Source of the DNA: Haematococcus lacustris
Taxonomy: Eukaryota; Chlorophyta; Chlorophyceae; Chlamydomonadales; Haematococcaceae
Assembly: GCA_030144725.1 (NCBI GenBank)
Contig: JASKMD010000008.1
Location: forward strand, 1,406,343-1,470,342
Direction: 5' to 3'
DNA length: 64,000 nucleotides
Program-made: the position numbers and the translations under genes
The notes under the pieces: model-generated
What the model was told of the DNA's origin: nothing
Database searches by the model: none
What the model saw: the letters and a program-made list of their open reading frames with translations, nothing else
Part shown: piece by piece, positions 1 through 63,666 of the stretch
How positions within the stretch are numbered: position 1 is the stretch's first letter
Layout: each line of letters begins with the position of its first letter

Positions 1-283
1 GCTTGCCTTGGGCGGAACGAGACACTGCGATGGAACCAACAGGAGCGACGGGTTATCTCACAGCGCGTAGTTCACGTAGCTCACAGTCGGCTAGGGAAAC
101 GCACCTTTCTGTTTCTTGTCGCTACCCTTCCGCTTCTTCTTAGCCATCACGCGATGCGCAGTGCGACGGGCGGGGGCCTTTTCGAGCAATTACCGCCTAC
201 CACCTACACTATTGCCTGACCCGAGGGCTAAAACTGTGTGTGACGACCATGGCAACAGTCGTCCTGGCCTGCTCCAGCGCCCG
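1..283 (-). mobile_element. 5' fragment of the Fanzor-like repeat family, with an embedded 3'-end motif
   Basis: Read on the minus strand, bases 1-197 match the stretch around 15675-15865 of the copy at 15526-17072. This includes the start of a small reading frame, MAKKKRKG, with an SV40-like basic cluster. Bases about 231-283 match 15607-15655 of the same copy. Between them, bases about 195-232 do not match the 5' region. They match the conserved 3' end of the family instead (the 'ggtcaggcaata.tgtaggtggtaggcgg' block seen at about 16987-17015). The copy is truncated by the window edge and has no recognisable nuclease motif. Confidence 0.75.
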
Positions 284-1466
284 GTCCTGGGCTCCGTACA
301 GCCTCAGCCTTGCTTGGCTGCCAGCTTGGCCGCAGTGAACCTTGCAGTCACGTACATGAGCCCGGTGCCAGGTGGCCAGCCTCTGGAGGTGAAGGCTACC
401 GTGGTGAGCTGCTGCCAGGGGTGCGGGTGGAGCCAGACATTCCCAGGCTGTGCTCCTATTCTACTGGCTGACGCGGCACACAACCACTGGCTCAGAAAAG
501 TATACAGACTGCATCTACATTGCGTGCGTTGCCAATGGCACATGTCGCGTCTTTGCAGCTAACTTTCGCTTTGCTCAATGTGTGTCACTCTCAGATGTCA
601 GCCTCCGTCATGCACGAACGGAGGAATAACTGATATGTCAGTAATAAATTGCAAGATGTACCTGCCACACACCCTCTCAATGCATCCCTCTCATTGCTCC
701 TCCAATGAGCCTTCAGTGCACCCCTGCCCTTGCCCTTGTCCCTGCCGAAGGGTCGTGGGCTGGGGGTGGAGTCCTGCCATTCCTCCAGGCACCTCTTGAC
801 GAGGATGGCTTACACGGTTTGGCACTTGGGCATGTTAGGTGTCGAGCGCACCTCCAACCCTGGTAATCTATCCTACTGTCTGTCTCTGAAGCTGAGAGTC
901 GCTGAACAGCTGCATGAGGCCGGCTGGGCAGCAAGGGCACACGCTCTGCCCCTGCCCCAGGCAAATGCAGCTGGAGGTTGAGGGGGTTTGGCTGCTGCTG
1001 CTGCATGCCCGTATATATAGGACATGATGGCGTATTGACATGGTCTGACCATGGTCCTATACCCACTCACACGGTCAATCAGACGGATATGCTGCTACTA
1101 CAAGAAGATGATAGCATGGGGCAGCGACAGGGGTGGCTGTAGCTACCACGCAGCACATCCAGCTGAATGCTGGTGGCAGTGGGCAAACTCAACAGCGCTG
1201 GATGGGCAAAGTAGGGCTGGCTAGCGGTGTGGCAGCTTGACCATGGTGAGCAGCAGGGGAGGTGCCAGCAGGGGGGCTGCCAGGTCCGGCCTGCTGCTGC
1301 TGCAGCGGCAGGGGGGCTGGGGCCAGCCTGGAGTCAAGGTGATGAAATGCAGAGGGCAGGAGGAGGGGGAAGGCACCGCCACTCAAAAGGCCCCTCCTGC
1401 TGCCAGTCCTGCCGTTGCTTTGCTGGCGGTGTGCCCTGCCCCCTCCCTGCATGAGTGAGGTGGTGT
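284..1466. other. Non-coding flank, no gene recognised
   Basis: This is about 1.2 kb between the repeat fragment at the left edge and the stop codon of the large minus-strand gene. Short open frames occur on both strands, but none shows a convincing start, splice context or recognisable motif. It probably contains the 3' untranslated region of the minus-strand gene. Confidence 0.4.
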
Positions 1467-7400: not shown

Positions 7401-10400
7401 CTCATGTGCACGCCGCAGCTTGAGGGCCAGCAGGGTCAGGGCCCAGCGCGTGAAGGCAAGAGGCCGCAGGCAGCATGCACACCGCCCCTGAAGCAGGCGT
7501 GCTTTGACACCCGCCAGGAGCTTTGATCGCTGTCCAGCATGTTAGTGCTGTTGCATGCCAACGCCATCAGGGTCAGGGCCATCAGGGTCAGGCACTGCAG
7601 GTGTGCTCAATGGTTCACGGGACCCGTCATAGCAGGGCCATTGCATGTTGGGCAGCGTGCTGACATGCATGGCCACATCAAGGACAGCAGGGCAGCAGCG
7701 CATGCAGTGAGGCCATGCACTTGCCTGCAGCTCCACCTCCCCCTGGCAACTGTTTGAAGAGGGGCGTAGGAGGGGCGTGGGCTCGTCCCCCTGGCTGCTG
7801 CGCTCCAGGGGCCGGCTGCGCCTGCGCTGGGAGCTGGAGAGGGAGGCCATGCGGAACAGCGTCTGCGCGTGGCTGCTCATCACCTGGCTGGCTGGCCCGC
7901 TGATGTGCGAGCTGAGCTGGCTGGGGGGGCCAGCTGCATCTGACTCTTCACCGTCCCCTTCTCCGGGGTGGCTGGACTGGCTGGGGGCGCCATGCACACC
8001 ATGCACACACACGGCAAGCAGAGTCTCTTGGTAAGTGTGTCGCAGCAATGCTGACAGCGGGAGGGTGATGAGGATGATGAGGATGATGAGGATGATGAGG
8101 GTGATGAGGGTGATGAGGGTGATGAGGATGATGAGGGTGATGAGGATGATGAGGGTGATGAGGGTGATGAGGATGATGAGGATGATGAGGGTGATGAGGG
8201 TGATGAGGATGATGAGGATGATGAGGGTGATGAGGGTGATGAGGGTGATGAGGGTGATGAGGATGATGAGGGTGATGAGGGTGATGAGGGTGATGAGGGT
8301 GATGAGGGTGATGAGGATGATGAGGGTGATGAGGGTGATGAGGATGATGAGGGTGATGAGGATGCACACACCGCCCAGCAGCTTTGTGACGCGGGAGGTC
8401 ATGGGCATTCAGGGAGTGGGAAGGCAGTCGAGCCACTTAAGGCAGAAGGGAGGTAGGAATTGAAGGGGCAGCACAGCATCAGCAGCACACCCACATCCAG
8501 GCTAGGGCCAGGGTCGCTCACCGTGCACTATGGCCGTCCACGGCCTCAGCCTGCATAAGGAGGCCCGACCGGGACCCTGCCGCCCTCCTGCCCTCTAGCA
8601 GCCCCCGGCGCCCCCCCGCCCCCTTGCTGCTGCCACTGCCGCTGCTGGCCCGGCGTGGCAGGGGACCATGCGCGGCAGTGGCAGTGGCTGAGGAGGATGA
8701 GCAGGATGAGCATGAGGAGGAGGAGGTATCATCCTCATGCCCCTGTGGCTCCAGGATGGTGTCCATCACGGCTTCCTCGTCAAGCCGCAGCGCAGAGGCC
8801 AGCCCACCATCCTCCTGGGCTGGGTAGGTGTGGCGCTTGCTGTGCAGGGAGGTGACCCGGTGCAGGATGCGCTTCAGCGTGGTGGAGGCAGCGGGGGAGG
8901 CGGGGCTGCTGCTGCTGCTGGGCCCTGCCCACCGCCCTGTGAGCGCCCCGCCTGGGCTCAGGCCAGGCAGCGTGGGGGTCGTAGCAGCGCCCGGGGTCAC
9001 CCCCCCACCTCCGGGGTCCAGGCTGTCAGTCGATGGCGGGGGGGTGGCAGCGGCCTGGGGGCAGGGGGCAGGGCTGCGTCAGTGCTGGCCAGCAGGCGGG
9101 TGACCCAGGCTGGCGCAGCAGCAGCAGGGGCTACATGCTGACCACCTGGCGCATGGACCAGCCTAGCGACCAGCTGTCCCAGAGGCCGTTTAACTCTAGT
9201 GTTGTAGCATCTGGCATGCACCTTGAGCTGGTGCCATGAGGTGGTGTGGTGCTGGGCTCCAAAATGCAACTGATAGAGCCCAGAGCCTGGGCCCAGCACC
9301 CTAGTAGTACTCTAGCACCCATGCCAGCTCGGCGCGCCAAGGTAGCCACACAGCCTCACAGCCAGAGCACAGCATTCCCTCGCCAGCCAAGCGCACCAAG
9401 GCTGGGCAGACAGCTCAGCCCCCCAAGGGGCAAGGCTGCTTTGGCCATGGGCAACACAGCCCCACAGCCTGGACCCAGCGCCCCTCCTTTATAACCCCGT
9501 TGCCCCTGAACACGCTAAGGCTATGTAGCCAGCCTGCCATACTAGGCGGGTGGGTGGACAGGGACACCTATGCAGCGTTCAACCAGGATCGCGATGGTGA
9601 TAGCAGGCGGTGCCCCATGGAGCTATGCTGGTGGCTGGACCTGCCGGAGCTGGAGTAGGAGGACCCAGGGCTGGGGTACAAATGGCTGCGAGACCGCCCA
9701 CCCAAGGCCTAGCAGCAGCAGTAGCAGCCTGCTGTGGCACAGTAGTGTGCCCCCTTGATCAGCGTACATCAGCGCATGTTTGTCATGCCCACCCTAGACC
9801 ATGGCCCTGTCACAGGGGTCAGCCAACAGTGTAGGTGGTGGGGCGCCCATGCCATGTGCATGGGAGCATGAATCCATACAGACAAGACACCACCCCTAGT
9901 GAGGGGACCTGGTTCTGCCTTAGCGGTCTGGCGAGGGAGGTGCTGCCAGGCGCTCACCCGCTCCAGCGCCATCTGTGAGCCCAGGGCGGACAGGTTCACG
10001 ATGCCCCGCTGTCGCAGGTTGTCCTTCACCACGCTGACAATGGTGGAGAGCACACCTACTGCACCTGCTGGCCGCTCCTCCCCTCCCACGCCTTGACCCT
10101 GCCCCTGCTGCCCTTGCGATGTGGGGGTGCCTGGCGTGCCTCTGCCCAGCCCCAGCCCCTGCTGCCCCTGCTGCCCCTGCTGCCCTTGCGATGTGGGGGT
10201 GCCAGGCATGCCTCTGCCCAGCCCTTGCCCCTGCTGGCCCTGCCCCTGTGCTGTGGGGGTGCCTGGGAAGTCCCGGCCCAGGCCCTGCATCACACCTGGG
10301 TCATTCCCGCCTGTCAAACTGCCAGCCACCAGCTTGTGCTTAAGCAGCATAGACGTGCTGGCTGACTTAGTGGGCCGGGACTGAGGCAGCTGGCTGGCTG

Positions 10401-15280: not shown

Positions 15281-15975
15281 TGATATGTGACTTGGGTGTG
15301 GATGTAGCTTAATGCGGCGTACACATACAGGCATCCTGGCAGCGACATCACCAGCTGTGCCGGGTCACGCTTGACCCAGGTGCATGCAGGCTGCAAGTTA
15401 GCGCTAATATTAGCTAAAACGGCGGGAGCTAGTACGGGGAGCTTAGATGAGCTGATTTGAGCTAGTATGAGCTGATACGAGCTATTGGGAGCTGGTATGA
15501 GCTGATCTGATAGATGAGATGAGACGGGTAGATGAAATTGGTAATGACAAGCTCCGGCTGCTCCCTGACACTCACACGCACCCAAGCTCTAGGATACTCC
15601 CTGACTGGCGCTGGAGCAGGCCAGGACGACTGTTGCCATGGTCGTCACACACAGTTTTCACGGGAAACCCAAATTGCTCGAAAAGGCCCCCGCCCGTCGC
15701 ACTGCGTATCGCGTGATGGCTAAGAAGAAGCGGAAGGGTAGCGACAAGAAACAGAAAGGTGCGTGTCCCCAGCCGACTGTGAGCTGCGTGAGTTACGCGC
15801 TGTGAGATAACCCGTCGCTCCTGTTGGTTCCATCGCAGCGTCTCGTTCCGCCCAAGGCAAGCAACGACAGGAGCGCAGGGATGGCTGGACCACGCGTCGC
15901 CGTCAGGTGCCGGCCCCGCCTTATGTGTCCCCGCACTCTTTGTGCTGACCCCGCCTTGTGTCTTGGCCTGTCAAA

Positions 15976-16902
15976 ATGGCCTGTCAAAATGTCAATTGCG
16001 CTTGGCTGCAGGTCATCAAGGTCCCCGAGGGCGCAGTGCTGCGCGGCTGCAAGAAGACCAGGCGCAAGCTGCGGGAGCACCTCCGGCTGCGGGCTGAAAT
16101 CCACTCCCAGCTCCGATTCATCGCTTCGCTGTTTGTATTGCGCATTTTTCTCACCTGCCTAGTGGGCTACCCTACCCCCGGCTTCCCCAGCGCCCCTCAG
16201 CCTCCAGCCGTGCAGCCTCCCCAACCCCCTAATGCTCCCGCCCTACCCCCACTCCCCCCACGGGCCCCTGCCCAGCCTGCCCCTGCCCAGCCTGCCAGCA
16301 TGGAGTGTGACAATGACTCTGACTCCGAGTCAGACTATGGCTCGGAGCCAGAGCCACAGTCTGACTCGGAGTCAGAGTCAGAACCTGAGCCAGTCCCGCA
16401 AAGGCGCTGTAGCGCCCGCCTGGCAGCCCTTGCACCTGCAGCACCCACTGGCCCTCCCATGCCCCTTGACTGCGAGGACCCTGTCATGCTGAGGCAGCTC
16501 AAGGACTTCTGCAAGTTCTTCGCCAACCCCAACTTCAAGACATGCTACAACCAGCTGCAGCGTCGCCATGTGCGCAACCGCCACCCCAGCACTCCCCCTC
16601 CAGCCAAGCGCAGCAAGCCGGCAGCTGAGCCCACCAAGGGCAATGGCAAGGCCCATGGCAAGGCTGCGAGGGCAAAGCCAGCCCCACAGCCAGGCAGGTG
16701 GCTGGACAGGGATTGCAATGCAGCGCTCAACATGCAGCGCATTGGGGAGAGCAGGTGGCGGCCACTGGAGCTGTGCTTCTGGCCAGACCAGGGAGCGCTG
16801 CCAGCCAAGGGCAAGGAGTACCCTGGCCTGGGCTACAAGCGGCTGCGAGACAAGCCCCCCAAGGCCCAGGAGCAGCAGCAGCAGCCTGCTGAGGCACAGT
16901 AA
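15976..16902 (+). CDS. Reading frame of copy A with a RuvC-III-like C-terminus
   Basis: The ATG at 15976 opens MACQNVNCAWLQ and the frame closes at TAA 16900-16902, 308 residues. Order of parts: a basic helix (GCKKTRRKLREHLRLRAEIH), a hydrophobic stretch (FIASLFVLRIFLTCLVG), a Pro-rich linker, and an acidic block of Ser-Asp/Ser-Glu repeats near residues 112-145. Then come Cys-containing segments (DFCKFFANPNFKTCYNQ) and a Lys/Ala/Pro-rich linker. Last is WLDRDCNAALNMQRIGESRW, followed by ELCFWPDQG and GLGYKRLRDKPPKA. DRDxNAAxN is the hallmark third RuvC motif of TnpB/Fanzor nucleases, where the second Asp is catalytic. The first two RuvC motifs are absent, so nuclease activity is not expected from this frame alone. 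Whether it is expressed is unknown. Confidence 0.55.
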   Translation: MACQNVNCAWLQVIKVPEGAVLRGCKKTRRKLREHLRLRAEIHSQLRFIASLFVLRIFLTCLVGYPTPGFPSAPQPPAVQPPQPPNAPALPPLPPRAPAQPAPAQPASMECDNDSDSESDYGSEPEPQSDSESESEPEPVPQRRCSARLAALAPAAPTGPPMPLDCEDPVMLRQLKDFCKFFANPNFKTCYNQLQRRHVRNRHPSTPPPAKRSKPAAEPTKGNGKAHGKAARAKPAPQPGRWLDRDCNAALNMQRIGESRWRPLELCFWPDQGALPAKGKEYPGLGYKRLRDKPPKAQEQQQQPAEAQ

Positions 16903-17060
16903 TGTGTGCCCCCCCCTACTTGAGCTGTCATCAGCTTACAATTAGTGCATGTTTTGTCATGCCAACTCTACATCATATAGCCCTCGGGTCAGGCAATATT
17001 GTAGGTGGTAGGCGGCTCATGTGCCATGTGCACTGGGTTTACTCCACACAGCCCAATAAC
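16903..17060 (+). ncRNA. Candidate guide-RNA-like 3' segment of copy A
   Basis: This non-coding stretch begins right after the stop codon and is kept in the other copies of the same subfamily. Stem AGCTG/CAGCT with a TCAT loop lies at 16923-16936. Downstream are the conserved blocks catgttttgtcatgccaactctaca and ggtcaggcaatattgtaggtggtaggcgg. In TnpB and Fanzor elements the omegaRNA derives from this position, so the assignment is by analogy. No expression evidence is available. Confidence 0.35.
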
Positions 17061-17063
17061 ACT

Positions 17064-17117
17064 ATTTTAGCCGGAGCTAGTTAGTGGCTGCTAGTGGCTG
17101 CTAGTTCCGGCTAAAAT
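17064..17117. repeat. Near-perfect palindrome at the 3' end of copy A
   Basis: Arms 17064-17080 (attttagccggagctag) and 17101-17117 (ctagttccggctaaaat) pair over 17 bp with one mismatch, around a 20-bp loop containing a tandem 'tagtggctgc'. The left arm overlaps the last bases shared with copy B, where no such palindrome exists. Confidence 0.8.
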
Positions 17118-17478
17118 GGAGGCCCTAGTGAGGGACAAGGAGGCTGCAAGTTAGGAGCAGGTGGGTCCACAACTGACAGCGTGTGGACCTGTTTGGTAGA
17201 CCGAGGCCACGAGGGAAGGGCGCAACATTGTTGACGGCATTTAGCTCCACGCTGCAATGGCTGCCAGTGATAGGCAAAGGGATATCATTATGTGTGTGGT
17301 GTTGTAATGATGATGATGCCTGTCAAAGCTGTGGGTGCCCCTCTTATCCCTTCACAGCTGCATGGCTTCATCAAGTAGCTGCCATCAGTCCATCACCACC
17401 AGCTGCCATCAATCCATCACCACCGCTCTCCTCATCAGGGCAGCATGCAACACATATTGACGCAATGGCACAACCATG

Positions 17479-19570: not shown

Positions 19571-19627
19571 CTTCCTAGCTGCGGGCAAGTGTTGTAGGTT
19601 ATGTGCATGGCTTCCTATTTGTGGGGC

Positions 19628-20912
19628 GGGCAGATGAAATTAGTAATGACAAACGCCGGCTGCTCCCTGACACTCACACGCACCCAAGCTCTAGGATACT
19701 CCCTGACTGGCGCTGGAGCAGGCCAGGACGACTGTTGCCATGGTCGTCACACACAGTTTTCACGGGGAACCCAAATTGCTCGAAAAGGCCCCCGCCCGTC
19801 GCACTGCGTATCGCGTGATGGCTAAGAAGAAGCGGAAGGGTAGCGACAAGAAACAGAAAGGTGCGTGTCCCCAGCCGACTGTGAGCTGCGTGAGTTACGC
19901 GCTGTGAGATAACCCGTCGTTGCTGTTGGTTCCATCGCAGCGTCTCGTTCCGCCCAAGGCAAGCAACGACAGGAGCGCAGGGATGGCTGGACCACGCGTC
20001 GCCGTCAGGTGCCGGCCCCGCCTTATGTGTCCCCGCACTCTTTGTGCTGACCCCGCCTTGTGTCTTGGCCTGTCAAAATGGCCTGTCAAAATGTCAATTG
20101 CGCTTGGCTGCAGGTCATCAAGGTCCCCGAGGGCGCAGTGCTGCGCGGCTGCAAGAAGACCAGGCGCAAGCTGCGGGAGCACCTCCGGCTGCGGGCTGAA
20201 ATCCACTCCCAGCTCCGCTTCATCGCTTCGCTGTTTGTATTGCGCATTTTTCTCACCTGCCTGGTGGGCTACCCTACCCCCGGCTTCCCCAGCGCCCCTC
20301 AGCCTCCAGCCGTGCAGCCTCCCCAACCCCCTAATGCTCCCGCCCTACCCCCACTACCCCTACGGGCCCCTGCCCAGCCAGCACCTGCCCAGCCTGCCAG
20401 CATGGAGTTTGACACTGACTCTGACTCCGAGTCAGACTGTGGCTCAGAGCCAGAGCCACAGTCTGACTCGGAGTCAGAGTCAGAACCTGAGCCAGTCCCG
20501 CAAAGGCGCTGCAGCGCCCGCCTGGCAGCCCTTGCACCTGCAGCACCCACTGGCCCTCCCTTGCCCCTTGACTGCGAGGACCCTTGGGGAGAGCAGGTGG
20601 CGGCCGCTGGAGCTGTGCTTTTGGCCAGACCAGGGAGCTCTGCCAGCCAAGGGCAAGGAGTATCCTGGCCTGGGCTACAAGCGGCTGCGAGACAAGCCCC
20701 CCAAGGCCCAGGAGCAGCAGCAGCAGCCTGCTGAGGCACAGTAATGTGTGCCCCCTTTGTTGAGCTGTCATCAGCTTACAATCAGTGCATGTTTTGTCAT
20801 GCCAACTCTACATCATATAGCCCTCGGGTCAGGCAATATTGTAGGTGGTAGGCGGCTCATGTGCCATGTGCACTGGGTTTACTCCACACAGCCCAATAAC
20901 ACTATTTTAGCC
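19628..20912 (+). mobile_element. Fanzor-like element, copy B, with internal deletion
   Basis: Nearly identical to copy A from 'gggcagatgaaatt' to 'actattttagcc', apart from scattered substitutions. About 260 bp are missing, corresponding to about 16483-16742 of copy A. The junction reads gaggaccc/ttggggagagc with a 1-bp overlap. The deletion removes the Cys-containing segment and the whole WLDRDCNAALNMQ motif and shifts the frame, so copy B cannot encode the RuvC-III end. The 3' non-coding tail is intact. It inserted at the downstream end of the gypsy remnant. Confidence 0.75.
20744..20900 (+). ncRNA. Candidate guide-RNA-like 3' segment of copy B
   Basis: Nearly identical to 16903-17060, with the AGCTG-TCAT-CAGCT hairpin at 20763-20776. 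It is retained although the upstream coding part is deleted. Confidence 0.3.
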
Positions 20913-24088: not shown

Positions 24089-24588
24089 NNNNNNNNNNNN
24101 NNNNNNNNNNNNNNNNNNNNNNNNNNNNNNNNNNNNNNNNNNNNNNNNNNNNNNNNNNNNNNNNNNNNNNNNNNNNNNNNNNNNNNNNNNNNNNNNNNNN
24201 NNNNNNNNNNNNNNNNNNNNNNNNNNNNNNNNNNNNNNNNNNNNNNNNNNNNNNNNNNNNNNNNNNNNNNNNNNNNNNNNNNNNNNNNNNNNNNNNNNNN
24301 NNNNNNNNNNNNNNNNNNNNNNNNNNNNNNNNNNNNNNNNNNNNNNNNNNNNNNNNNNNNNNNNNNNNNNNNNNNNNNNNNNNNNNNNNNNNNNNNNNNN
24401 NNNNNNNNNNNNNNNNNNNNNNNNNNNNNNNNNNNNNNNNNNNNNNNNNNNNNNNNNNNNNNNNNNNNNNNNNNNNNNNNNNNNNNNNNNNNNNNNNNNN
24501 NNNNNNNNNNNNNNNNNNNNNNNNNNNNNNNNNNNNNNNNNNNNNNNNNNNNNNNNNNNNNNNNNNNNNNNNNNNNNNNNNNNNNNNN
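24089..24588. other. Assembly gap (500 N)
   Basis: Exactly 500 N, a standard placeholder; the true length is unknown. Confidence 1.
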
Positions 24589-28176: not shown

Positions 28177-28483
28177 CACTACTGCCGACTTGCACGCACG
28201 TCGTGCCGCTTAGTTGGGCTAGCTTTGTTTGAACTTTGGCATATATTTTGTTTAAACTTTAGTCTCGTTCTCAGCCTAACATAGCTGATTCAACACGGAA
28301 CAACATGTTTATTTGTAAGTGACACCAATTAGCTACAGTTACATTGGAGCACCTTGGTCGCACCCTTGATGACCACAAACCCCACACAAAACACTATTCC
28401 CCTAAACCACTGGGCACCTCATCAAAACTAAAAGCTTGATGCTTCAAAGCCTAACAACCTGTCAAGGTTACAAGACCCTAAGG

Positions 28484-29400
28484 ATTGTTGCGGGCCCGTC
28501 CATCAATACCCCCGCCGGTACTCTGCAGCCCGGTGCAGACGCTGCCTGCCTTTGGGCAGCCGGTCATTGACCAGCTTGAAGCGCTGCTGGTATTCCTCGC
28601 CAATGGGGGGCAAAGCCTCCAGGTCATCCCAGTTGCACAGCTCCAGGGGGCGCTGCATGCTCTCCCCAATGTTTTGGAAGTTGAGGCATCCGTTGGTGTC
28701 CCGGTCCAGCCAACTACCCCATGGGGGGGCCTGGGGTCGTGGCACTGGGCCAGGCATTTTAGTTTTAGCTGGAGACCACTGGGCACCTCAACAAGATTAA
28801 CAGCTTAGTGGGGCCTGGGTAGGGGGAGGGTGGTAGGGGGAGGGTGGCTCCTCAGTAAGGGGGCCATGGGCAGGGGGGCATGGGGAGGTGGAGGGGGTAG
28901 CTCCTGGGCAGGGGGAGGAGATGGGTCCTGGGCTGGGGGAGGGTGGTTGGGCGGCACCTCATGGCACCTCATGGCTGGGGGAGGGTGGTTGGGCGGCACC
29001 TCATGTCACAAGTCAGGCCCCGCACATACTTAGCATGCCGCTGGCTCCAGGCTGGGCGCACCAGCCGCTGGATCACTTGGCCTGCTGGGGGTACCCGGTC
29101 TGAGGGTCTAGGCTGGTTACGTGGCCTGCTCACAAGGCTGGCGGGCATGCTCAGTCGAGCTGACCCGGCTGGTGCGGAACTATCTTGCCACGCTGCCTGT
29201 CTGTTGTCCTATCGCTGTTGGGCCACTCCCCCACCTTACGGCAGGCCTGCAGCACGGCGGTGGCGCCCCATCCACCCTGCGTGCCAATGCCAGCATCGCC
29301 GAAGAATACAAATAGCTGCTTGTGTGCCCCCCACAGCCGTTGAGTTACATTATCTGCCTTCTCCTCCAGCTGCATGGCCCACAAGGCAAACAGTGCGCAT
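28484..29400 (-). mobile_element. Fanzor-like element, copy D (second subfamily), decayed
   Basis: Minus-strand frames in order: KQLFVFFGDAGIGTQGGWGA and VLQACRKVGEWP (29320-29220), the equivalent of the block at 63.08 kb; QRLVRPAWSQRHAKYVRGL (about 29070-29010); then a duplicated 30-bp low-complexity insert. It ends with SWLDRDTNGCLNFQNIGES and MQRPLELCNW, then a terminal YRRGY and stop at about 28503. The WLDRDxNxxLN motif is the RuvC-III-like element. A frame break near 29150 and loss of the VDEFRT-like motif mark it as a pseudogene. Its 3' flank does not carry the conserved tail of copies A and B, indicating a distinct subfamily. The imperfect repeat accactgggcacctca occurs on both sides of its C-terminal part (28397 and 28772). 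Confidence 0.65.
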
Positions 29401-30487: not shown

Positions 30488-41226
<10,739 letters not shown>

Positions 41227-42335
41227 CTGCAGCGATCCACAGCAAAGGGGCTAACTATGTTTCATAGCTGACTCGCCCATTGCGGCACAGCCCCTGCGTC
41301 CTGTCTCCTGTGTACTGCAGTTGTGCGCAAATGACACGGAAAATGGTGTGGGGTAAAGGCAGGTTTCTATGGCGCATGCAGCTGCCCACAAGCTTGGCTT
41401 TCCCACTTGTTTAACACAGCGAGACCCAGTGCACACTGCTGGGCCACTGTTTTACAACTCTCCAACCAGGTGACTTTCATTTACCCGCTGTTGGATGTTA
41501 TCCCCAACTCCTAATACATACAGTCAGCCGGTCCCAGCTGAGAGAGATCCTACCCCTGGTAATCAAAACGACGCCGCGTCTAAACCACATTGTTACTATT
41601 TGTTTGTCGCACATCCCCGGATAGAAGACTATGTCAGCTATGCGGTGCATCATGTATCATTAGATACTGTGCAGTGTGCTGAGTGCTATGGCGGCTCAAA
41701 TCTTGGCATTCAATTATATGCCAGTTTTGCTCATGCGGGCCTGGTCCCGACGTAGAGCCACATGCCGGGACTCGCGGCTAAAGCCAGCGGCCCGCGAGCG
41801 GTACTGGCAGGAACAGCGGTAGCGCGAGGAGTCATGCGTATTAGTGCAGTTTCGTATTAAACGCTGTACCTAGCGGTAATAGAAACATTATGTCTAGTGG
41901 CAAGGAAGAATGTAGCTTGTACCTGATGTGGTGCTCTGCAATCCAGACACTGGGCAATCGTGACAAGCTTCTCAATTAATAGTGGAGGCGTATTGCGTCT
42001 GTGTGACGCCGTGCTCAACGTGAGTGACATTTTGACATTTGCGCCCATCACCCCCAATTTCCAGGCCAGAGTGCTTGCGCTACACGAGCAACATCGCTGA
42101 ACTAGCTGCTGCCATACTCCTCGCGGCTGCCGCGTCGTGGAAGAGTGAAGTTCTTAACCTTGCCCAGACCTGCCGAGGACGTGAGCTGGAAAAGCTGGTT
42201 TGTTGAGTTATGGACGCTATGAGTCTTCAAAACTCGTTCAGTCAATACCCTGGTTGCCCGCAGGATTTTGATACTTGCTTCCTTCTCAGAGGCCGCGTGT
42301 TTTTGGAGTAGCGAGCACCTAGCGCACAATTGCCG
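41227..42335. promoter_or_regulatory. Divergent intergenic region between BIG-like and FAR genes
   Basis: About 1.1 kb separates the start codons of two oppositely transcribed genes, so promoters and 5' leaders of both should lie here. No TATA box or named element could be supported. An open frame at 41495-41755 has no recognisable motif and is not called. Confidence 0.45.
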
Positions 42336-45300
42336 ATGCATCCGTCAAGCCCGGCTGCGATGGGTCCGGCTGCGGGCCTTGCACCCAGCAAACTGAGTGT
42401 CAAGGCGGCGTTCGCGGGCACCTCGGTTCTGTTGACGGGCGCTACAGGCTACGTGGGCAGCCTGGTGCTTGAGCAGATTTTGCGTTGCTGTCCAGACGTC
42501 AAGCGTATCTACTGCCTCGTCCGGGGCAAACGGAAAGTTAATGCGGAGTTGCGAATGCGAAGGTCAGCAGGTCCACATCGCCCAGGGCCCGCCGAGAAGT
42601 TGCCGGGTGGGGGGGAGGGATGGGCGCCAGGCCGTGGGGTGTCACCTCACCCCTGCCTTGTCTGCACAATGTGCACCCTTACCATCTTCAAAAATCCACC
42701 TAAACAACACGACCCGGCCTGCCTCCTACCTCACCCCGCCCTATCTCGCCCCACTCACTCTCCCAGCACCACCCTTTGTGGCGCTGCTGCCCCGCTACAG
42801 GCTGCTGCACAGTGGGCTGTTCCACTTGGTGCGCGACCGCCCCGAGCTGCTGCGCAAGGTGGTGCTGCTGGAGGGCGACCTGCTGAGCGACAAGCCGCAC
42901 CTAGGGGTGGACCCAGGGGACCTGCCCTTCCCACCACCCAACGCGGCCCGGGCGCCTTGCCTGACACCAGTGCTGATAGACCCGCCCGGCCCCTCCTTAC
43001 CCACCCGGGGCTCCAGCCCCGATGACGAGGAGGACCCGGCCCTGCAAGCCATGTCCATGACCGGCGTGGCCCGCACTTTCAGCCTGTCGGCCACCAAGAG
43101 CCAGTCCTCCACACGCAGACCCTCTGAACTGGACGCACCCAGCCAGCACGCCCCGCCCCCCAGCATGACCCGCCGCACCCTCACGGCCCAGCAAAGCGTG
43201 ACCCAGCAGCAGAGTGTGATGCAGCTAACGCAGACGAGCAGCAGCAGGCTCCAGCAGGGGCTGGACATGGCACCCATGGGGCCTGGAGGGGCAGTGCCCA
43301 TGGCCTCGCTGCCAGGCATGATGTCGCAGGCAGCTGACTCGACCGCTTCCACCCCTGCAGTGGCACCACCCATGGGGAGCCCGGAAAGAAATGCATATGC
43401 GGCCAGCGTTGCGGCTGCAGCTAGGGTGGTGATGGAGGCGGTAGAGGTTCCCCCGGCGCCGGCACTTATGAAAGCCCAAGGCCCTGGCATTGCCTCTGGG
43501 CCCAGCGTGAAGGGGGAGCGGGACATGGTGTGGGATGGGGAGGGCCGAGGGGTGCGCGGCACGCTGGCCGACGTGCAGCGCGAGGCCCGGCTGGTGGCCA
43601 TACACTGCGCCGCCCGCATTGCCCTGGAGGACCCTGTGCAGGTGTCCCTGCGCCATAACTACGGGGTGGGTGGGGCGTGCAGGCCGTGGGTGCAGCATGG
43701 AGGCCGTGGGTGCAGCATGGGGAGCGAGCACTGGTGATGGCAGTAGTGTTGATGATGATGATGATGGTGATGATGATGGTGCTGGTGGTGATGGTAATGA
43801 TGCTGCTGCTGCAGGGCGCCCGCAGCCTGCTGGAGGTGCTGCGCTGCCTGCCCAACAAGGTCTGCCTGCTGCACGTGTCCACCGCCTTTGTCAACTGCTG
43901 CAAGCCCTTCCTCCCTGACGGCCTGGTGGAGGAGAAGCTGTACCCGCTGAAGTTTGGAGACCAGGAGGTGTCAGGGCTGAGGGGGCACAGCCAGGGTGAC
44001 CCGGCCGCTAGGGCAGGGGTGGCGGCAGGGGTAGGGGGGAGGAGACCAAGGTCAGGTAGGGTGAGGCCAAGGCAAGACCAGGGGGTAGGGGGAGTGCAGG
44101 GGGAAAGGACACCCTTCCCCTCCCCTCCCCCCCCAAGTGTAATAAATCACCCTTCCAGGGCCTTGCCACAACGACAGCATCTCCTACCTCTTCCTACCTC
44201 TACTGTCTCCTGCTCTTACACCTGCTGCCGTCCTGCTGCTGCCGTTGGCATCCCTGCTGGCCATGCTTGTGGTGCTGCCGCTGCCGCTGTCCCAGATGGC
44301 TAAGGTGGTGTGCCTGCTGGCTATGGTGTTGTGTGGCTCGGCAGATCAACCACAGCCAGGTGGTGGCAGACCTGATGGGAGCGCGGCTGCGCGACGCCCA
44401 GGCCCACGGCGAGTACCTGGCTCACAAGTGGGGCTTCCCCAACACATATGTAGGTCACACTCCCACCCCTCACTCCCGGGGCTAGGGTTAGGGATGAGGT
44501 TGAGGTTAGGGTTGAGTTAAGGGTTAGGGTTGGGCTAAACTAACTCACTAACCCAACCCCTGCAGGTCCTCCGCACCACCCTCCCCAGTAAGGCAGGGTC
44601 TCAACCCTGGGGCCGTGTGCAGGCAGCCAGACCAGGCCCATGGGCTCCCTTGCGCTCAGCCATGATACCGTCTGATGGTGTGTGATGGTGTGTGATGGTG
44701 CGGTGTGGTGCAGGTGCTGGGCAAGCATATGACTGAGCAGCTCATCTGCTCCGCCCACAGCCCCCAGCTGCCTGTGGCCATAGTGCGACCCTCCCTGGTG
44801 TCGGCAGTGGCGGGCCAGCCCTACCCTGGCTTTGTGGGCAACCTGGCAGGTGCGGGGGGAGGGCCAGGGGGTAGGGGCAAGGGGTGGAGGCAAGGGACGT
44901 GGCGGCAGGGCGTCTTACCTGCTTACCCTCTCCTTACCTGCTGCTGCGATGGCTCCCCCTGCCATGATGTCTTTGCCTACCTGCCAGCCACCCCTGCCCA
45001 GCTGCCTGGCCCCCTGCCCAGCTGCCTGGCCCCCCGTCCCTACCCAGCCGCCTGCCCTCATGCTTCTGCCTGCGCATGGCAGGTCCTAGCGGCTTCATGG
45101 TGGCGTTTGCCATGGGCTTCATGGTGCCTAACTCGCGTGCCTTCGCCCCCTTTCACCACATTGACGGGGTCCCTGGTGACATCTGCTCCTCCCTCATCAT
45201 CACCGCAGCAGCCGCCCTGCTGCAAGACACGCAGCAGGGGCTGCCCTCCCCCATCTACCCACCCCCTGCCCCTCCCCACCCCCCAGGCCTGGGTCCTGCA

Positions 45301-48163: not shown

Positions 48164-51100
48164 ATGGCGCAGTTCAGCCCACATCGGCCCGCGCTAGCGT
48201 GGTATTCAGATTTGAGTAAAGCCAAGGTGTGGCACCAGCACCTGGGAGCAGTTAGGGCGAGGTGTCAATGTACCGGGAGTTCACGGTGGCTCTACATGGC
48301 GTGCACAGAACGATGGGCTCGTCGGTCTTAAAGCTCGTGCTACAATCCAGGATCTGTTGGAAAGGATTAATGGTATGTTTCCCATTCCTTCAGCGCTGTA
48401 CATGCACTACAGTACTAACATATTACAGCATCTCTCCCTCCATCCCTTTGCAGACCCAAACGCTGATGAGCAAGCACTGGTGCCATCGAGTCCCCGCTCA
48501 GTCGAAGCTTGTTTTAGACTAGGCTTGGACCCCCATGACCTGCAATACCACCCTGTGAAGTGGTATGCAAAGAAGGAAGACGTCGACAGTGACGTGACAC
48601 ATGCACGCTTTGAGCGCTTTGAGTATGTTCGCCAGGAACGCCTGCGGGCCCTCATTGAGCAACGCAAGTAAGTTCACCATGCACCATGGGATAGGGTGGG
48701 GGTTGAGTCCAAAGCAGGCGCCTTACCCTGTGACCACGTGACACAATGATATTGCTGCAGTCACTGGGCAAAGACAGTCAAGCCAAGCCCTATGCAGAAG
48801 CACCCGCACAAGTGTGAGCAGCAGTGTGCTGCCGCATGCAAGCCTTCTTGCCCGCATGCTGAGCTTGCAGACAGCTAGTGGATGAGGGTTGGCAACCCGC
48901 TGACCAGCGGGGCTTCCAAGGCCTGGGAACCTCCACCTTGCGGAGGGAGGCCAGCGGCGGCAATGCAGCCAGCAGTTCCATGGTGGAGCAGGTAGGAGCA
49001 GCAGCCTGGTCTGCAGAGTTACTTGGGCTAGTGACTTGGATGGCAGCCCATGCCCCATGGCCTTTGAGGACCATGCATGGATAGCCCAGCAGCTCAAAGT
49101 GGAACAGCCATTGCCAGGGGCAGCAGCTGGTCCCAGCACATCACTTAAGCAGCCCCGAGCGACAAGGCAGTGGGGTGTAAATCCTTTAGGGCTTCCTGGA
49201 TGGGTAAAGCAGGCTGTGCAGCGCAGCGGCAGCACCATCGTCTGCCCCCTGCACTTGGCGTTTGCAGGAGAAGCAGCGGCTGGAGGTGCTGAAACGCCGC
49301 CAGGAAAAGGACCTCCAGCAACTGGTGAGAAAGGAGCACTGGGTTAGGGTGGGCACAAAGCAGGTGCCTGACCCTCAGGCGGTGTCACCCGCGTGATGGC
49401 TGGCAGAGGTGCCAGGTCTGATGTGCCCACACTTCTTCCTGGGGCCATGTGGTCCTCAGGCTTGGGCTGATCATGGCAAAGCACCTCTTGCAGCTGCAGC
49501 CTGGATGTGCTTGCTATTAACAGCACCTTGGCCCTCAACCTTGAGCCTTCATTGCAATCGAACACACTAATTGTGAACCACTACAAAACAGTGTTTTTGT
49601 CTGTGTGGAGTTCCCATCGCATGGCATGCACATGGCCTATACATGGCATACACATGGTCACGGTCGCCTACCACCTACAGCATTGCCTGACCCCTTTGAC
49701 AGGGCGATGCATAGAGTTGGCATGACAAAACATGCACTAAGCGTAAGCTGATGCCAGCTCTGATGGGGGGGGGCACACACTACTGTGCCTCAGCAGGCTA
49801 CTGCTGCTGGGCTGTATGTGGCTTGTCTCGCAGCCGCTTGTAGCCCAGGCCAGGGTACTCCTTGCCCTTGGCTGGCAGCGCTCCCTGGTCTGGCCAGAAG
49901 CACAGCTCCAGTGGGCGCCACCTGCTCTCCCCAATGCGCTGCATGTTCAGCGCTGCATTGCAGTCCCTGTCTACCCACCTGCCTGGCTGTGGTGGGGGTT
50001 TGGCTTTAGCAGCCTTGCCCTGGGCCTTGCCTTTGCCCTTGGTGGGCTGGCTGGGCTCAGCTGCCTCTGGCTCAGCCTTCTTCTTGATCATTTCTTCTTG
50101 ATGACTAGGGTCAACAAGGGGTTACACAGAGTCGCAATAGGGTCTGCAAACCTCACACGTTGTCACACATCCTAGGATGCAGCGATGGCAAGATCAGTGC
50201 CAGATAGAGCCAGGGGCTAATCACCACCGCTGCCACTGTTGCTCAGGCAGCCAATGCTGCTGAGCAGGGTCATGTGGGGTGTTTCATCAGCCATCTCCTT
50301 ATGCCTTACCCTTGGTACCAGCCCAGGGGGCACCAGGGGCCCCTATCTCCAGCGATTGCCTGCATGGTCAGGTGTGGGGTCCTTGGTGCAGTGTGTTGTG
50401 GCGTGAGGTGTGGCTCATGTGTGTGTGTGTGTGTGTGCCCTGCTTCACCCCAGCAGCCCTGGCCTTGTGCAGGTTAACCACGAGCTGTCTCGCAAAGAAC
50501 TTGCTGAGCGCCAGCAGCGCAAGGTGGAGGAGCTGGAGCGGCGCAATCAGGAGCTGCAGCGCCAGCGCCTGGAGCAGGAGGCGGCGCGCTCGGCCAAGCA
50601 GCGTGAGATAGAGCTGCTGAAGGTAAGCCACCAGCCAATGACACCACTGGCGCAAGCACAAGGCTGCACAGGAGGTGTGCAAGGTGCCTTCACAGCATGC
50701 AGTTGAGAGCTGACGCAGTTGGAATGGTGCATAGCACACACTGTACATTGTGCTATAGGCCACTGCTGGTGGGCAGTCTTGTAGCCGCCTGTAGCCCAGG
50801 TCAGAGTACTCTATGGCCGTTATATGGCATCGTGGGCACTCATTTTGTTTGCCTCATTAGCTTCAGCTTAGTTGCCTTGGCACCACACCCAACCTGTTGC
50901 CGCCACACGGGTCCTGCTGGTGGTACCTTCACAGCATCTTCCTGACCATTGTGAGAACCCCTGTGGCGTGCATCCATGCACCCCTTCAGCCGGGGCAACC
51001 CACCGCCAGGCTCTGGACCCCCTCCCCTTCCCGCAGCCCTAACCTCCCTGGCCACCTGAAGCCATAGGCACCCCTGTGGCGTGTGGCTAGGCAGTTCCCA

Positions 51101-59600: not shown

Positions 59601-61919
59601 GGCCAATCCAACCACCACCAGGCTGCTCTCAGACTGGACATTAGGCGAGCCATGCACTTGCGCCTGCTCGCCGCACAAGGCAGGGTCTTCGGCCTTGACT
59701 GGCGATCGCGATTTTGCGAGGGCGGCACACGAAGGCCCAATTGCTGTCGCGCCGTTTCCAACGCTGAGAGCACGGCCTGCGCAGGCGGCTGAGGTGCTGC
59801 GGAGGGCGGCGACATAGGCTGACTCTGCCGAGGCTAAGCCGTGCACTAGCTTCACCAAGCCACTCAGCATCCTGCAACAGCAGGCACAGCATGGAGGCAT
59901 GGAGTAATAAGGTATGCACACACACATCAGCAGAGGGGCAGCAGGCGCTATGGTTTGCAATCAGTGCCACGCCCTGCTCACCTGCTGCTTCCCTCCAGCT
60001 GCTTCACAATCAGACCGCTGATCTCGGCCGCCACCCCACTCTCATCCTGCACACCACCTGCCACTGCACTGGGGGCTGCAGCCACACAGGCCAGAGGTGC
60101 CAGCAGGTGCCAAGGCACAGCGCATGCCCACCACCAACTGACCCAAACCCTTACCAACCCCAACCTTTCTGACCTGCTGCCTCCACCTTCACCCCTCAGC
60201 TCCACCCCACCCCCTAGCCCCACACCCTCACCCGCCGCTGTGCCAATTAGCTCAATGGCTCACCTATCTACCCCTGCTGGTCCATGGCTGGCCGGCAGCA
60301 CTACCTGCCAGGCAGTGCAGTGGGCCTGCCACCCCACCCCTGCCTTCGCCCCTGTCTGCTGACCTGGATGTCCAGGTCCAGCTGCTCCAGGGCCTGGCGC
60401 TGGCGCTCCACATCCCCCGAGTGGTCCCCCATCAGGGCCGCACAGCATGCGTGAGCCAGGAGGCTGGGCCGCACAGGAGTGACCTGGAGCCCCGGATTAC
60501 ACCACATCACACTACACATATCCACAGTTGCTTACCGTAGGCTATGAGGTGCTGTGCTGCCGCTGATCAGCACACCCCGGCACTGAATGTCAAAGGCACG
60601 ACACTGCCTACTGCAATTGCTGGTAAGCAGGGCTTGCACACTGAACTGTGGACAAGGAAGCACCTAGTGGTGGGGTTGTTCACTGCATGATTGGAAGGAG
60701 GCCAGTAGAGGGCGCTGCAGGGCTGTCTGCTTCTCTACTGCAGCGCTCCCTGGTGCAGCCCTCCCCGCAGTGCCCCGCAGTGCCCCTGGCAGGTGGCTGG
60801 ACAGGGGGCATTGAACATGCAGCGCACTGGGCAGAGCAGGTGGCTCCCGCTGGAGCTGTGCTGGTGGCCGGATCTGCCTGAATTGCCAGCCAAGGGCAAG
60901 GAGTACCCTGAGCTGGCTACAAGCGCCTGCTAGTCCGCCCACCCAGGGCCCAGCAGCAGCAGCAGCAGCAGCGGCAGCAACAGCCTTTGGCACAGTAGTG
61001 TGCCCCCTATAAGCTGTCACCAGCTTACATCAGTGCATGTTTGTCATGCCAACTCTAGGCTATAGCCCTGCCGCAGGGGCCAGGCAATAGTGTAGGTGGA
61101 AGGCGCCCATGCCACATGCATGGGACTACAACTCCACACAGCCAAAACACCAACATAACTTCATAAAGACAAGACACCACCCTTAGTGAGGGAACCTGGT
61201 TCTGCCTTAGCGGGCTGACGAGGGAGATGCTGCTTGAGCCTATTGCTCTGCTGAGCTTTCACTGCATTCTACCCTTGATGTAGAAACTGCAGCCACACTA
61301 GCTGACAATGCCCTGGCCTGACAGCTGACCCACACCCCGAGCTTGAGGTCAGCGCGGGTTCAGGTTGATGAGGGCACACCAGATGTAGGCTGGGCCTCAC
61401 CTGACCACCCACACAATTGCCTTGGGCTGGGGACGCCAAGCCAGTGCTGCCGCAGCGGCTGCCCAACTGCTGGCGGGCTGCATCTGCCAGCTGTGGGTCT
61501 TGGAGGATCTCAGCGCTGACGAAAGGGCGGCTCGGGGTTATGTCCAAGGACCCCTGCAGCCGGGGGGAGGTAGCTTGTGGCTCAAATGGTGTTGCAGCAC
61601 TCCCTGCCTCAGCTGCTTTCACCTTCTTCATCAGCAGCATCAGGGTGGCTTTCTCAGAGGGGTCGCGCCAATATACGTCATCCTGGAGGTGGTGGTTGTT
61701 GAGGGTTGAGGATGCTAAGCTAGAAGGTTGGGTGGGGGAGGACAGGTCTGAGGAGCTGTCAGCTAAGGGGTGGCTGTCCTCTTGCTCGGATGAGGCCGCA
61801 GGTGACATGCAAAAGTGATAGTCGAGGTAGTGTGCTGAGGTGGCTGAGCTGGCTTGTTCGGGCACTTGCACTTGCACTGGCTTGGACTTGGGCTGGGCTG
61901 ACTCGGCGTAGATAGGCAT
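56651..61919 (-). CDS. Probable F-BAR-like helical region plus C-terminal PH domain protein
   Basis: The ATG at 61919 starts MPIYAESAQPKSKPVQVQVP. Exons: 61919-61401, 60483-60364, 60046-59982, 59871-59391, 59219-59124, 58877-58770, a small one near 58515-58480, 58355-58207, about 57938-57832, about 57466-57252, and about 56818-56651 (TAG). Phases agree at the secure joins. The N-terminal exon is Ser/Pro-rich. The middle part is helical and contains SGLVKLVHGLASAESAYVAA, the pattern of FCH/F-BAR helices, followed by long helices (LARLAQQLQRLLHRFQATCR; RSFLNTAFSQAKDLEAARLE). Near the end, GHAVLTRAGFLHWLRGDG and LTLRAPSTDSCCEWVLAVRE are the first strands and the last helix of a PH domain. Such proteins bind and bend phosphoinositide membranes. 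The F-BAR call is weaker than the PH call. The last join, between the PH halves, is uncertain. Confidence 0.7.
56893..57012. repeat. Minisatellite of cagcaggggcagccac/aacagccacat units
   Basis: Four to five units of 'cagcaggggcagccacaacagccacat' and shortened forms lie between the two PH-domain coding pieces; best explained as intronic. Confidence 0.88.
60775..61235 (+). mobile_element. Decayed Fanzor-like 3' end, copy F, intronic and antisense
   Basis: The plus strand reads RWLDRG, then a frameshift, then ALNMQRTGQSRWLPLELCWW and PAKGKEYPEL before a stop. The conserved tail then carries all three hairpins: 61012-61025, 61065-61080 and 61106-61124. The further tail to about 61235 is shared with the 9.5-9.9 kb copy. 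It lies in the first intron of the minus-strand PH-domain gene. Confidence 0.75.
61000..61135 (+). ncRNA. Candidate guide-RNA-like 3' segment of copy F
   Basis: Three stems: AGCTG/CAGCT with loop TCAC; GCCCTG/CAGGGGC with loop CCG; CCCATGC/GCATGGG with loop CACAT. The matching third stem at 9846-9864 has loop CATGT. Stems are kept while loops differ, which supports RNA folding, although the protein part has decayed. Confidence 0.35.
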
Positions 61920-62245: not shown

Positions 62246-63666
62246 ATGGCGAGGAAGAAGAGACGAACCGGTGTGGGTGGGCCTAGTGCAGTGCCGGAGG
62301 ACCCGGACTTCAACCCGCTGGCCCACCTCCACGCGGAGTGGCTTGGCGTGGACCCGGGCAAGACGAATATGGCCACGGTGGCGCACGAGGAGCGCAGCGC
62401 CGACGGCTCAGTGGTGTCCGTACGCCACTGGACGCTAACCGCCGGGCAGTACNNNNNNNNNNNNNNNNNNNNNNNNNNNNNNNNNNNNNNNNNNNNNNNN
62501 NNNNNNNNNNNNNNNNNNNNNNNNNNNNNNNNNNNNNNNNNNNNNNNNNNNNNNNNNNNNNNNNNNNNNNNNNNNNNNNNNNNNNNNNNNNNNNNNNNNN
62601 NNNNNNNNNNNNNNNNNNNNNNNNNNNNNNNNNNNNNNNNNNNNNNNNNNNNNNNNNNNNNNNNNNNNNNNNNNNNNNNNNNNNNNNNNNNNNNNNNNNN
62701 NNNNNNNNNNNNNNNNNNNNNNNNNNNNNNNNNNNNNNNNNNNNNNNNNNNNNNNNNNNNNNNNNNNNNNNNNNNNNNNNNNNNNNNNNNNNNNNNNNNN
62801 NNNNNNNNNNNNNNNNNNNNNNNNNNNNNNNNNNNNNNNNNNNNNNNNNNNNNNNNNNNNNNNNNNNNNNNNNNNNNNNNNNNNNNNNNNNNNNNNNNNN
62901 NNNNNNNNNNNNNNNNNNNNNNNNNNNNNNNNNNNNNNNNNNNNNNNNNNNNCAAGTGGAAAGATAGGACTGAGATTGGGACAATTGGCTAGGAGGAGTG
63001 CTTAGCAGCTAGTCCATGCGGCTAGAGGAGGAGGAGCCATCGTATAGAAGGCGGACAATGTAACTCAGCGGCTGTGGGGACACACAAGCAGCTGGTGGTG
63101 TTCTTTGGCAATGCTGGCGTTGGCACGCAGGGTGGGTGGGGCGCCAATGCCGTGCTGCAGGCCTGCCGCAAGGTGGTGGAGTGGCCCTTCAGCGGCAAAC
63201 AAACAGACAGGCCACGTGGCAAGGTGGTGACAGTGGATGGGTTCCGCACCATCTGTGTCAGCTCAGCTATGAACAGCCCCCAGCGATGTGAGAGGCGGCC
63301 AGGAAGCCCCAGCCAGGTCAGGTGCAGGACCGTCTGTTGCGGTCAGCCTGGAGCCAGCGGTTTGAGGCGCCAGTGCGGGGGCTCATGTGGTGTCCCTGGA
63401 TGAAGCAAGACACCCTTGGGGATCTTGGCAAATCTAGATGGATAAATAGGAACCGCTACTTAGCCTCCAGCGGGTAGGGGATGCCCAGCGCCTAGTGGAG
63501 CTGTGCCGATGGCCAGGCCAACCAGCGGCTCCTGTCCTAGGCAAGGAGTACCCAGCAGCACCTGGGTTGCATAATGTGCTGCAGCGCAAACTCCAATCGG
63601 CCAAGCTGTACCCCAGCATCTTACATGTTGACAGCTGTTGACAGCACAGTTGTTCCCCTACAATTA
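62246..63666 (+). pseudogene. Fanzor-like (TnpB-related) nuclease, copy E, most complete but broken and gapped
   Basis: The frame from ATG 62246 reads MARKKRRTGVGGPSAVPE, with a basic start that could act as a nuclear signal, then AEWLGVDPGKTNMATVAHEE and SVRHWTLTAGQY, and runs into a 500-N gap. GVDPGKTN fits the first RuvC motif of TnpB/Fanzor (Asp catalytic). After the gap, 63080-63300 encodes KQLVVFFGNAGVGTQGGWGA, LQACRKVVEWP and VVTVDGFRTICVSSAMNSPQ. The last fits the 'vDEfrTS..C' region, but with Gly in place of the expected Glu. With frameshifts it continues as LRSAWSQRFEAPVRGLMWCP, then LSLQRVGDAQRLVELCRWPG and a stop near 63666; the DRDxNAA motif itself is lost. In Fanzor proteins this region forms the RNA-guided DNA-cleaving core. 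This copy is inferred to be inactive. It lacks the 3' tail of copies A, B, F and G and groups with copy D. Confidence 0.65.
62453..62952. other. Assembly gap (500 N) inside copy E
   Basis: Exactly 500 N; it hides the central part of the nuclease-like frame. The true size is unknown. Confidence 1.

Follow-up and report, generated by a model that had tools for sequence, protein, structure and literature searches.

Decayed copies of three predicted Fanzor1-type transposon families in Haematococcus lacustris and their probable one-ended, Helitron2-like spread

For the Fanzor1 elements CRe-1/2/3 of Chlamydomonas reinhardtii, transposition of the one-ended Helitron2 kind has been proposed (Bao and Jurka 2013, PMC3627910). 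The Fanzor1 fingerprint used here, a DPG motif with an alternative glutamate (Ealt), is that of PMC10711439, which describes a zinc finger in many TnpBs and Fanzors; the Fanzor/TnpB motif string, which includes RD and a C4 zinc finger between RuvC-II and RuvC-III, is that of PMC3627910. In SpuFz1 the residues D383, E541 and D606 are spaced by 158 and 65 positions (PMC10432273). We analyzed a stretch of 64,000 nucleotides from Haematococcus lacustris (assembly GCA_030144725.1, contig JASKMD010000008.1, positions 1,406,343 to 1,470,342, forward strand), hereafter the window, in which an earlier note made from the letters alone had noticed TnpB/Fanzor-type nuclease motifs in a multi-copy element. 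The window indeed holds eight related places, if the mosaic termed copy E is taken as one, and as judged from sequence these are decayed copies belonging to three related Fanzor1-type transposon families.

Families, Fanzor1 homology and the missing zinc finger

The three families, F-I, F-II and F-III, were split by signature and tblastn. Among the window copies, lettered A to H, F-I comprises copy D and the right part of E, F-III the left part of E, and F-II copies B, C, F and H, to which A and G are closely related. The protein sample consisted of 344 distinct proteins, the best 120 each of 1121, 798 and 210 matches, and H. lacustris was the named source of every protein match listed. Among these 344 listed proteins, the signature of F-II was seen in 153, that of F-III in 116 and that of F-I in 51, with 23 mixed and one bearing none; the long relatives include P0219 (901 aa, F-II), P0134 (639 aa, F-II) and P0230 (588 aa, F-III). 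The motifs TDG, DPG, E and RD occur in this order in 67 F-II, 25 F-III and 2 F-I proteins of the sample, and DPG, the glutamate and RD are together in none of the window copies. The Fanzor motif order claimed earlier is thus present in the longer relatives, though the motifs from which it had been assembled came from three different families. Across 314 kb (the window plus 250 kb of flanking contig) 26 clusters were detected, 25 with the C-terminal end and 7 with the N-terminus; if this density held, the 308-Mb genome would contain about 25,000 clusters, a figure extrapolated from one stretch. Fanzor-relative families are abundant in H. lacustris. In the main texts of two genome papers on this alga (PMC7617258, PMC10400597) the word 'helitron' occurs 0 times and a description of the families was not seen, which is not proof of absence in print.

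The encoded proteins are divergent Fanzor1 homologues with a WED-like stretch, a RuvC-I DPG, the Fanzor-specific glutamate and a RuvC-III RD. A search of viral contigs with the pattern VDE[YF]RT[ST]xxCxxC found one contig (IMGVR_UViG_3300042867_001586, locus L001), whose 671-aa protein, P0345, phmmer identifies as a Fanzor1 (E=4.5e-35 with the Parasitella Fanzor1, 2.8e-34 with SpuFz1 and 4.4e-23 with GtFz1). When family profiles were compared with P0345 using hhalign, 334 and 325 columns were aligned (P ~1e-10), collinear through the LDT stretch, TDG, DPG and RD. As P0345 had been chosen by the DEFRT-block pattern, the weight of the homology rests on the remainder of this alignment. The profile scores exceeded those of 500 shuffles (21.4 vs 2.9 bits and 17.5 vs 5.2 bits), the significance being limited to the stretch up to RuvC-I, with the RuvC-III stretch alone not significant. 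We accept the homology to Fanzor1 because P0345 bridges the two groups; direct sequence searches of the PDB (phmmer, hmmsearch) with P0001, P0027 and alignments A1 and A2 gave 0 matches. Searches of viral contigs with A1 and A2, and of genome contigs with A1, returned pattern matches with no relative among them. In a fold comparison of a low-confidence model of the F-III RuvC core, whose rows included Fanzor, Cas12 and others, SpuFz1 ranked first. The kinship suggested by the earlier note is supported by this ranking and the P0345 alignment. Copies E and D themselves carry damage at catalytic positions. Pfam gave 0 matches for five open reading frames (ORFs) of the window; among 20 longer relatives PF07282 was above cut-off in two (P0005 and P0059, both with repeated RuvC-III blocks), scores for the rest being weak or absent. 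An NCBIfam scan gave 0 relevant matches in 7.

For RuvC-I, DPG is present in 168 of 240 matches to a loose pattern, the remainder of which includes off-target matches, and D256, P257 and G258 are nearly invariant in A2. The glutamate is found in 292 of 295 blocks, from 270 of the listed proteins, under a pattern that left its position free; it aligns with E570 of P0345 and lies six residues upstream of the zinc-finger position, as does the 'alternative' glutamate of Fanzors. For RuvC-III, DRD is present in 357 of 375 matches (312 of the listed proteins), the R being fixed by the pattern. In both alignments Glu and RD occupy nearly invariant columns, as DPG does in A2, though it falls outside the 90% list of A1. 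The D-E-D spacing is 177 and 53 in P0230, and 168 and 50 in P0345.

The cysteines that would follow the glutamate are missing. No CxxC follows it in any of the 295 blocks, 280 of which have Ser, and 2 Cys, where the first zinc Cys would stand; the block pattern fixed the flanking V and T, and more degenerate blocks are uncounted. Overlapping pattern matches for the second half of the finger contained no CxxC (0 of 100, 0 of 83 and 0 of 221). The viral relative P0345 has Cys pairs in both halves (TSCRCSKC ... CCNNGC). The Cys-containing C-terminal pieces pointed out earlier in copy E hence do not represent a zinc finger, and since the C4 finger is lacking we class these families as zinc-finger-less Fanzor1 relatives and not as typical members.

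Element ends, intron-like stretches and the probable mode of spread

The anatomy of F-II is illustrated by copy B and by a nearly complete copy outside the window:

15402..17146, + strand: copy B (F-II), with start-codon exon (ATG 15716), N-terminal domain, internal deletion, RuvC-III and fixed 3' end
15394..15401, + strand: left target-site duplication of copy B (CAAGTTAG), with AGGCTG before it
17147..17154, + strand: right target-site duplication of copy B, adjoining the GGCTG of the 3' terminus
17062..17119, + strand: F-II 3' subterminal hairpin (CTATTTTAGCCGGA ... TCCGGCTAAAATGG), 14-pair consensus stem from 11 copies
291025-294629 of the joined 314 kb, - strand: nearly complete F-II copy to the right of the window, with TDG, DPG, VDEHRT and DRDCNAALN in one frame, interrupted by an intron-like stretch

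Eleven F-II 3' ends in the 314 kb match a 30-nt terminus, which ends in GGGGGCTG in 10 and in GGAGGCTG in copy B. Similarity between the copies stops at most 13 bp from this terminus in 9 of the 11, and the other two reach the limit of the comparison. Direct repeats of 5–12 bp (11, 8, 10, 12, 9, 12, 5 and 6 bp) accompany eight of the 11 ends, with the left repeat directly after CTG, and after GGCTG in six. The CTG anchor was built into this search; for 6 of 7 ends an unanchored search arrived at identical sites. In the first pass, covering 2.6 kb upstream, repeats of at least 8 bp were found at 5 of 11 ends, as against 2.8% of random CTG flanks; the 9-bp duplication came from a wider search (5.2 kb) without a control of its own. 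Random CTG-site flanks reach 5 bp in 17% and 6 bp in 8% of cases, and the 5- and 6-bp duplications are accordingly weak. In five of the eight copies, no more than 4 bp lie between the end of the left repeat and the independently placed start of similarity; in three, about 40–200 bp of extra sequence are present, as is also described for CRe elements (PMC3627910). The 5' ends are ragged: six of these copies begin at varying distances upstream of the start-codon exon, which they contain, and two begin within the coding region. The first ~120 bp of copy B (to ~15525) have no match in the copies compared. Near 240805-240860 of the joined contig, telomere-like CCCTTAC/TTCTAACCCTTACAC repeats lie between the left duplication and copy 242676, possibly as captured DNA.

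The F-I 3' end differs from that of F-II, reading TTGAATGAGTTTTGTTTGR (for example at window position 28272, - strand), and of 12 pattern matches 8 continue with CTG, one of them after an additional G. Target duplications were found at 0 of 5 F-I ends; a possible 5-bp repeat after CTG was noted at the F-I 3' end at 296087 (- strand). A comparison of three copies did not resolve the F-III 3' end.

In the 11-copy F-II consensus, ~30 bp separate the 14-pair stem from the terminus, whose GGGCTG is paired with CAGCCC. At one pair of the stem both sides are changed in three copies, perhaps through a single event. The 3' untranslated region of copy B showed no marked RNA structure (z -0.39), a five-copy fold of this region had no pair changed on both sides, and Rfam gave no match in window positions 15300-17300.

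The introns described here are predictions from gene models and sequence, not transcripts. A GTGAGG...GCAG-like stretch lies between RuvC-I and the glutamate in four F-II copies (by pattern), one of which has a changed donor; pattern matches that looked spliced proved to be these very sites. At the same place in a fifth copy, which is F-I-like (366-1232 of the joined contig), tblastn revealed an insertion with stops; no copy reads through this site without an insertion by tblastn. At the start exon, the donor is kept in 6 of 8 sites, and no spliced junction was seen in these eight. That intron-like stretches are retained speaks for spread at the DNA level rather than through spliced RNA.

A fixed 3' end, ragged 5' ends and duplications after a fixed motif, the marks of one-ended insertion of the Helitron2 type, are all seen in F-II. 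The T-rich target tetranucleotide of Helitron2-type elements is absent, CTG preceding 8 of 8 and GGCTG 6 of 8 F-II duplications. We consider it probable that the window holds dead, deleted copies of three Fanzor1-type families that spread by one-ended, rolling-circle, Helitron2-like DNA transposition, for which a partner would have supplied the enzyme. OMEGA systems take the guide from the flank past the 3' end, and their target lies beside a short motif. If the same rule holds here, intact copies would make a guide RNA running from the 3' end into the flank, the empty site would read GGCTG followed by the exact guide sequence, and cutting there would help the element to spread. Copies in the window are no longer capable of such guide production and cutting. 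None of them can be active, because E and D are broken at catalytic sites, and B and C lack the RuvC-I and glutamate region. We give little credence to the further proposal of an active, zinc-finger-free Fanzor1 branch, whose RNA-guided recognition of a GGCTG-flanked empty site would be coupled to the insertion and ending of the element: target motif, target-adjacent motif and 3' terminus would coincide, and the nuclease would help to choose or protect rolling-circle insertion sites.

The element's own right junction also consists of GGCTG and the same sequence, which is a difficulty for the predicted cutting. A less likely reading of the families is that of Fanzor-derived passengers without nuclease function, which lost the zinc finger and are carried as relics by another transposon. 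The uniform lack of CxxC in the 295 blocks, the broken window copies, and P0227, which lacks the WED region and yet represents 11 similar members, all agree with such relics. Nevertheless, the near-invariance of Glu and RD in A1 and A2 and of DPG in A2, and the ordered TDG, DPG, E and RD in the 67 F-II, 25 F-III and 2 F-I listed proteins, argue against this reading, although other columns of the alignments are as conserved and the annotated gene models are possibly chimeric.

Copying via RNA by a long interspersed nuclear element (LINE) partner is a doubtful alternative to Helitron2-like transposition. Target-primed reverse transcription would likewise give fixed 3' ends, 5' truncation and short duplications, such as the 5–12 bp repeats observed, and at sites cut by LINE endonucleases the target motif also stands immediately upstream of the duplication, as it does here. 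Against it, the predicted intron-like stretch is kept in all five copies seen to span its site (four F-II and one F-I-like), spliced start-exon junctions number 0 in 8 sites, and a poly-A or tandem-repeat tail was not seen by eye at F-II 3' ends.

Copy E and the other copies of the window

Copy E, from which the earlier note had started, proved to be a mosaic across an assembly gap:

62246..62452, + strand: left piece, F-III Fanzor1-like N-terminus and RuvC-I, WED region deleted, 69/69 aa as in P0227
62345..62368, + strand: GVDPGKTN (RuvC-I), corresponding to P0227 D36
62453..62952: assembly gap of 500 N, splitting 'copy E'
63047..63557, + strand: right piece, broken F-I fragment in three frames (tblastn)
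63233..63250, + strand: VDGFRT in the right piece, with Gly in place of the catalytic glutamate

Both GVDPGKTN and the VDxFRT block are encoded as had been reported, the latter as VDGFRT. All 69 residues of the left piece are identical to P0227 (tblastn E=1.7e-42), the representative of an 11-member cluster. In P0228, 126 aa lie between PEDPDF and NPLAHL; they are absent from P0227, whose PEDPDF-NPLAHL junction is unique among the listed proteins, and because the window DNA shares this junction the left piece is a deletion form. The right piece matches F-I proteins (tblastn E=1.5e-47 and 2.6e-48, linked pieces) and has NRN (frame +1) where its relatives have DRD, the RuvC-III aspartates being gone. 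That E is a single frameshifted Fanzor is very improbable: both pieces are on the + strand, ~600 bp apart including the N run and in the expected order, and two listed proteins (P0092 and P0025) match both, but the left piece is matched by 57 and the right by 218, and the two come from different families on either side of the N gap. Copy E as one element is thus rejected.

The remaining copies are:

1..310, - strand: copy H, F-II 5' part across the left edge of the window (ATG ~147), its 3' end ~1.1 kb outside
9458..9946, + strand: copy A, 3' fragment of an F-II relative, RuvC-III DRDTYAAFN
19627..20912, + strand: copy C, F-II, 98% identity with B, shortened by one more internal deletion, 3' terminus missing
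28272..29375, - strand: copy D, F-I, frameshifted, RuvC-III DRDTNGCLN, F-I 3' end (..GTTAGGCTG) at 28272
49647..50048, - strand: copy F, F-II 3' fragment, intact DRDCNAALN at ~49.97 kb
60785..61233, + strand: copy G, 3' fragment of an F-II relative, RuvC-III broken

In copy D, the VTVDE block is cut by a 14-bp deletion that breaks the glutamate codon. The DRDxNAAxN motif ascribed to the related copies is present as DRDCNAALN in B (at ~16.70 kb, + strand) and F, but is degenerate in the 28.5 kb copy. Within the 5' region of copy H (~193-230) lies a 38-bp piece of the F-II 3' region, 97% identical to 16978-17015, which would be a rearranged or captured end. A chance resemblance of the motifs in low-complexity, GC-rich algal DNA is highly improbable, since the weak single-sequence scores and the lack of Pfam matches for the five window ORFs are set against profile matches far above 500 shuffles, collinearity over ~330 columns and the many related proteins in the annotation of the genome.

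Neighbouring features and comparison with known systems

Elsewhere in the window we noted the following:

7900-8430: long minisatellite with units such as GATGAG, several frames open
24089-24588: second 500-N gap
30488-32170: ORF with no Pfam match
38718-41250, - strand: pieces of a BIG/Mon2 Sec7-type host gene (HUS domain, E=7e-20, at 38718-39764; DCB domain, E=4e-22, at 39889-41250)
42312-43025, + strand: beginning of a gene resembling fatty acyl-CoA reductase (NAD_binding_4, E=2e-12)

These families offer a natural sample for asking why Fanzor rides on eukaryotic transposons: their ends are defined to the base, CTG or GGCTG is the predicted target-adjacent motif, and the zinc finger has been lost. 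Whether the finger is needed, and how cleavage relates to the insertion site, thereby become testable questions. For annotation, many H. lacustris 'hypothetical proteins' that match the families are transposon pieces, some of them fused to host gene models.

Among solved proteins, SpuFz1, PpFz1 and GtFz1 (8gkh, 9cf0, 9cer), as described in PMC10432273 and PMC11423790, share with the Haematococcus families the order of RuvC-I Asp, alternative Glu and RuvC-III Asp, and SpuFz1 is the best fold match of the low-confidence F-III model; however, no phmmer or hmmsearch sequence match connects the three with these families, and SpuFz1 has a CCCC zinc finger that they lack. The viral P0345 is collinear with them and shares VDEFRTS, a block that belonged to the search pattern, but has kept its Cys pairs. 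In another green alga, Auxenochlorella, a Fanzor-coding element is described as the most abundant repeat (PMC12636532), a likeness that rests on this description in a different species and not on element anatomy. The closest resemblance is to CRe-1/2/3 as described in PMC3627910: these too are chlorophyte Fanzor1 elements with introns, internal deletions, over-represented 3' ends and duplications directly after a fixed short motif. That motif is TTTT in Chlamydomonas and CTG/GGCTG in Haematococcus, which has three families without a zinc finger and 26 clusters in the 314 kb sampled. What is new here are the F-II copies with a fixed 3' end and CTG-anchored duplications, which resemble the Chlamydomonas Fanzor1 elements but use a different target motif.
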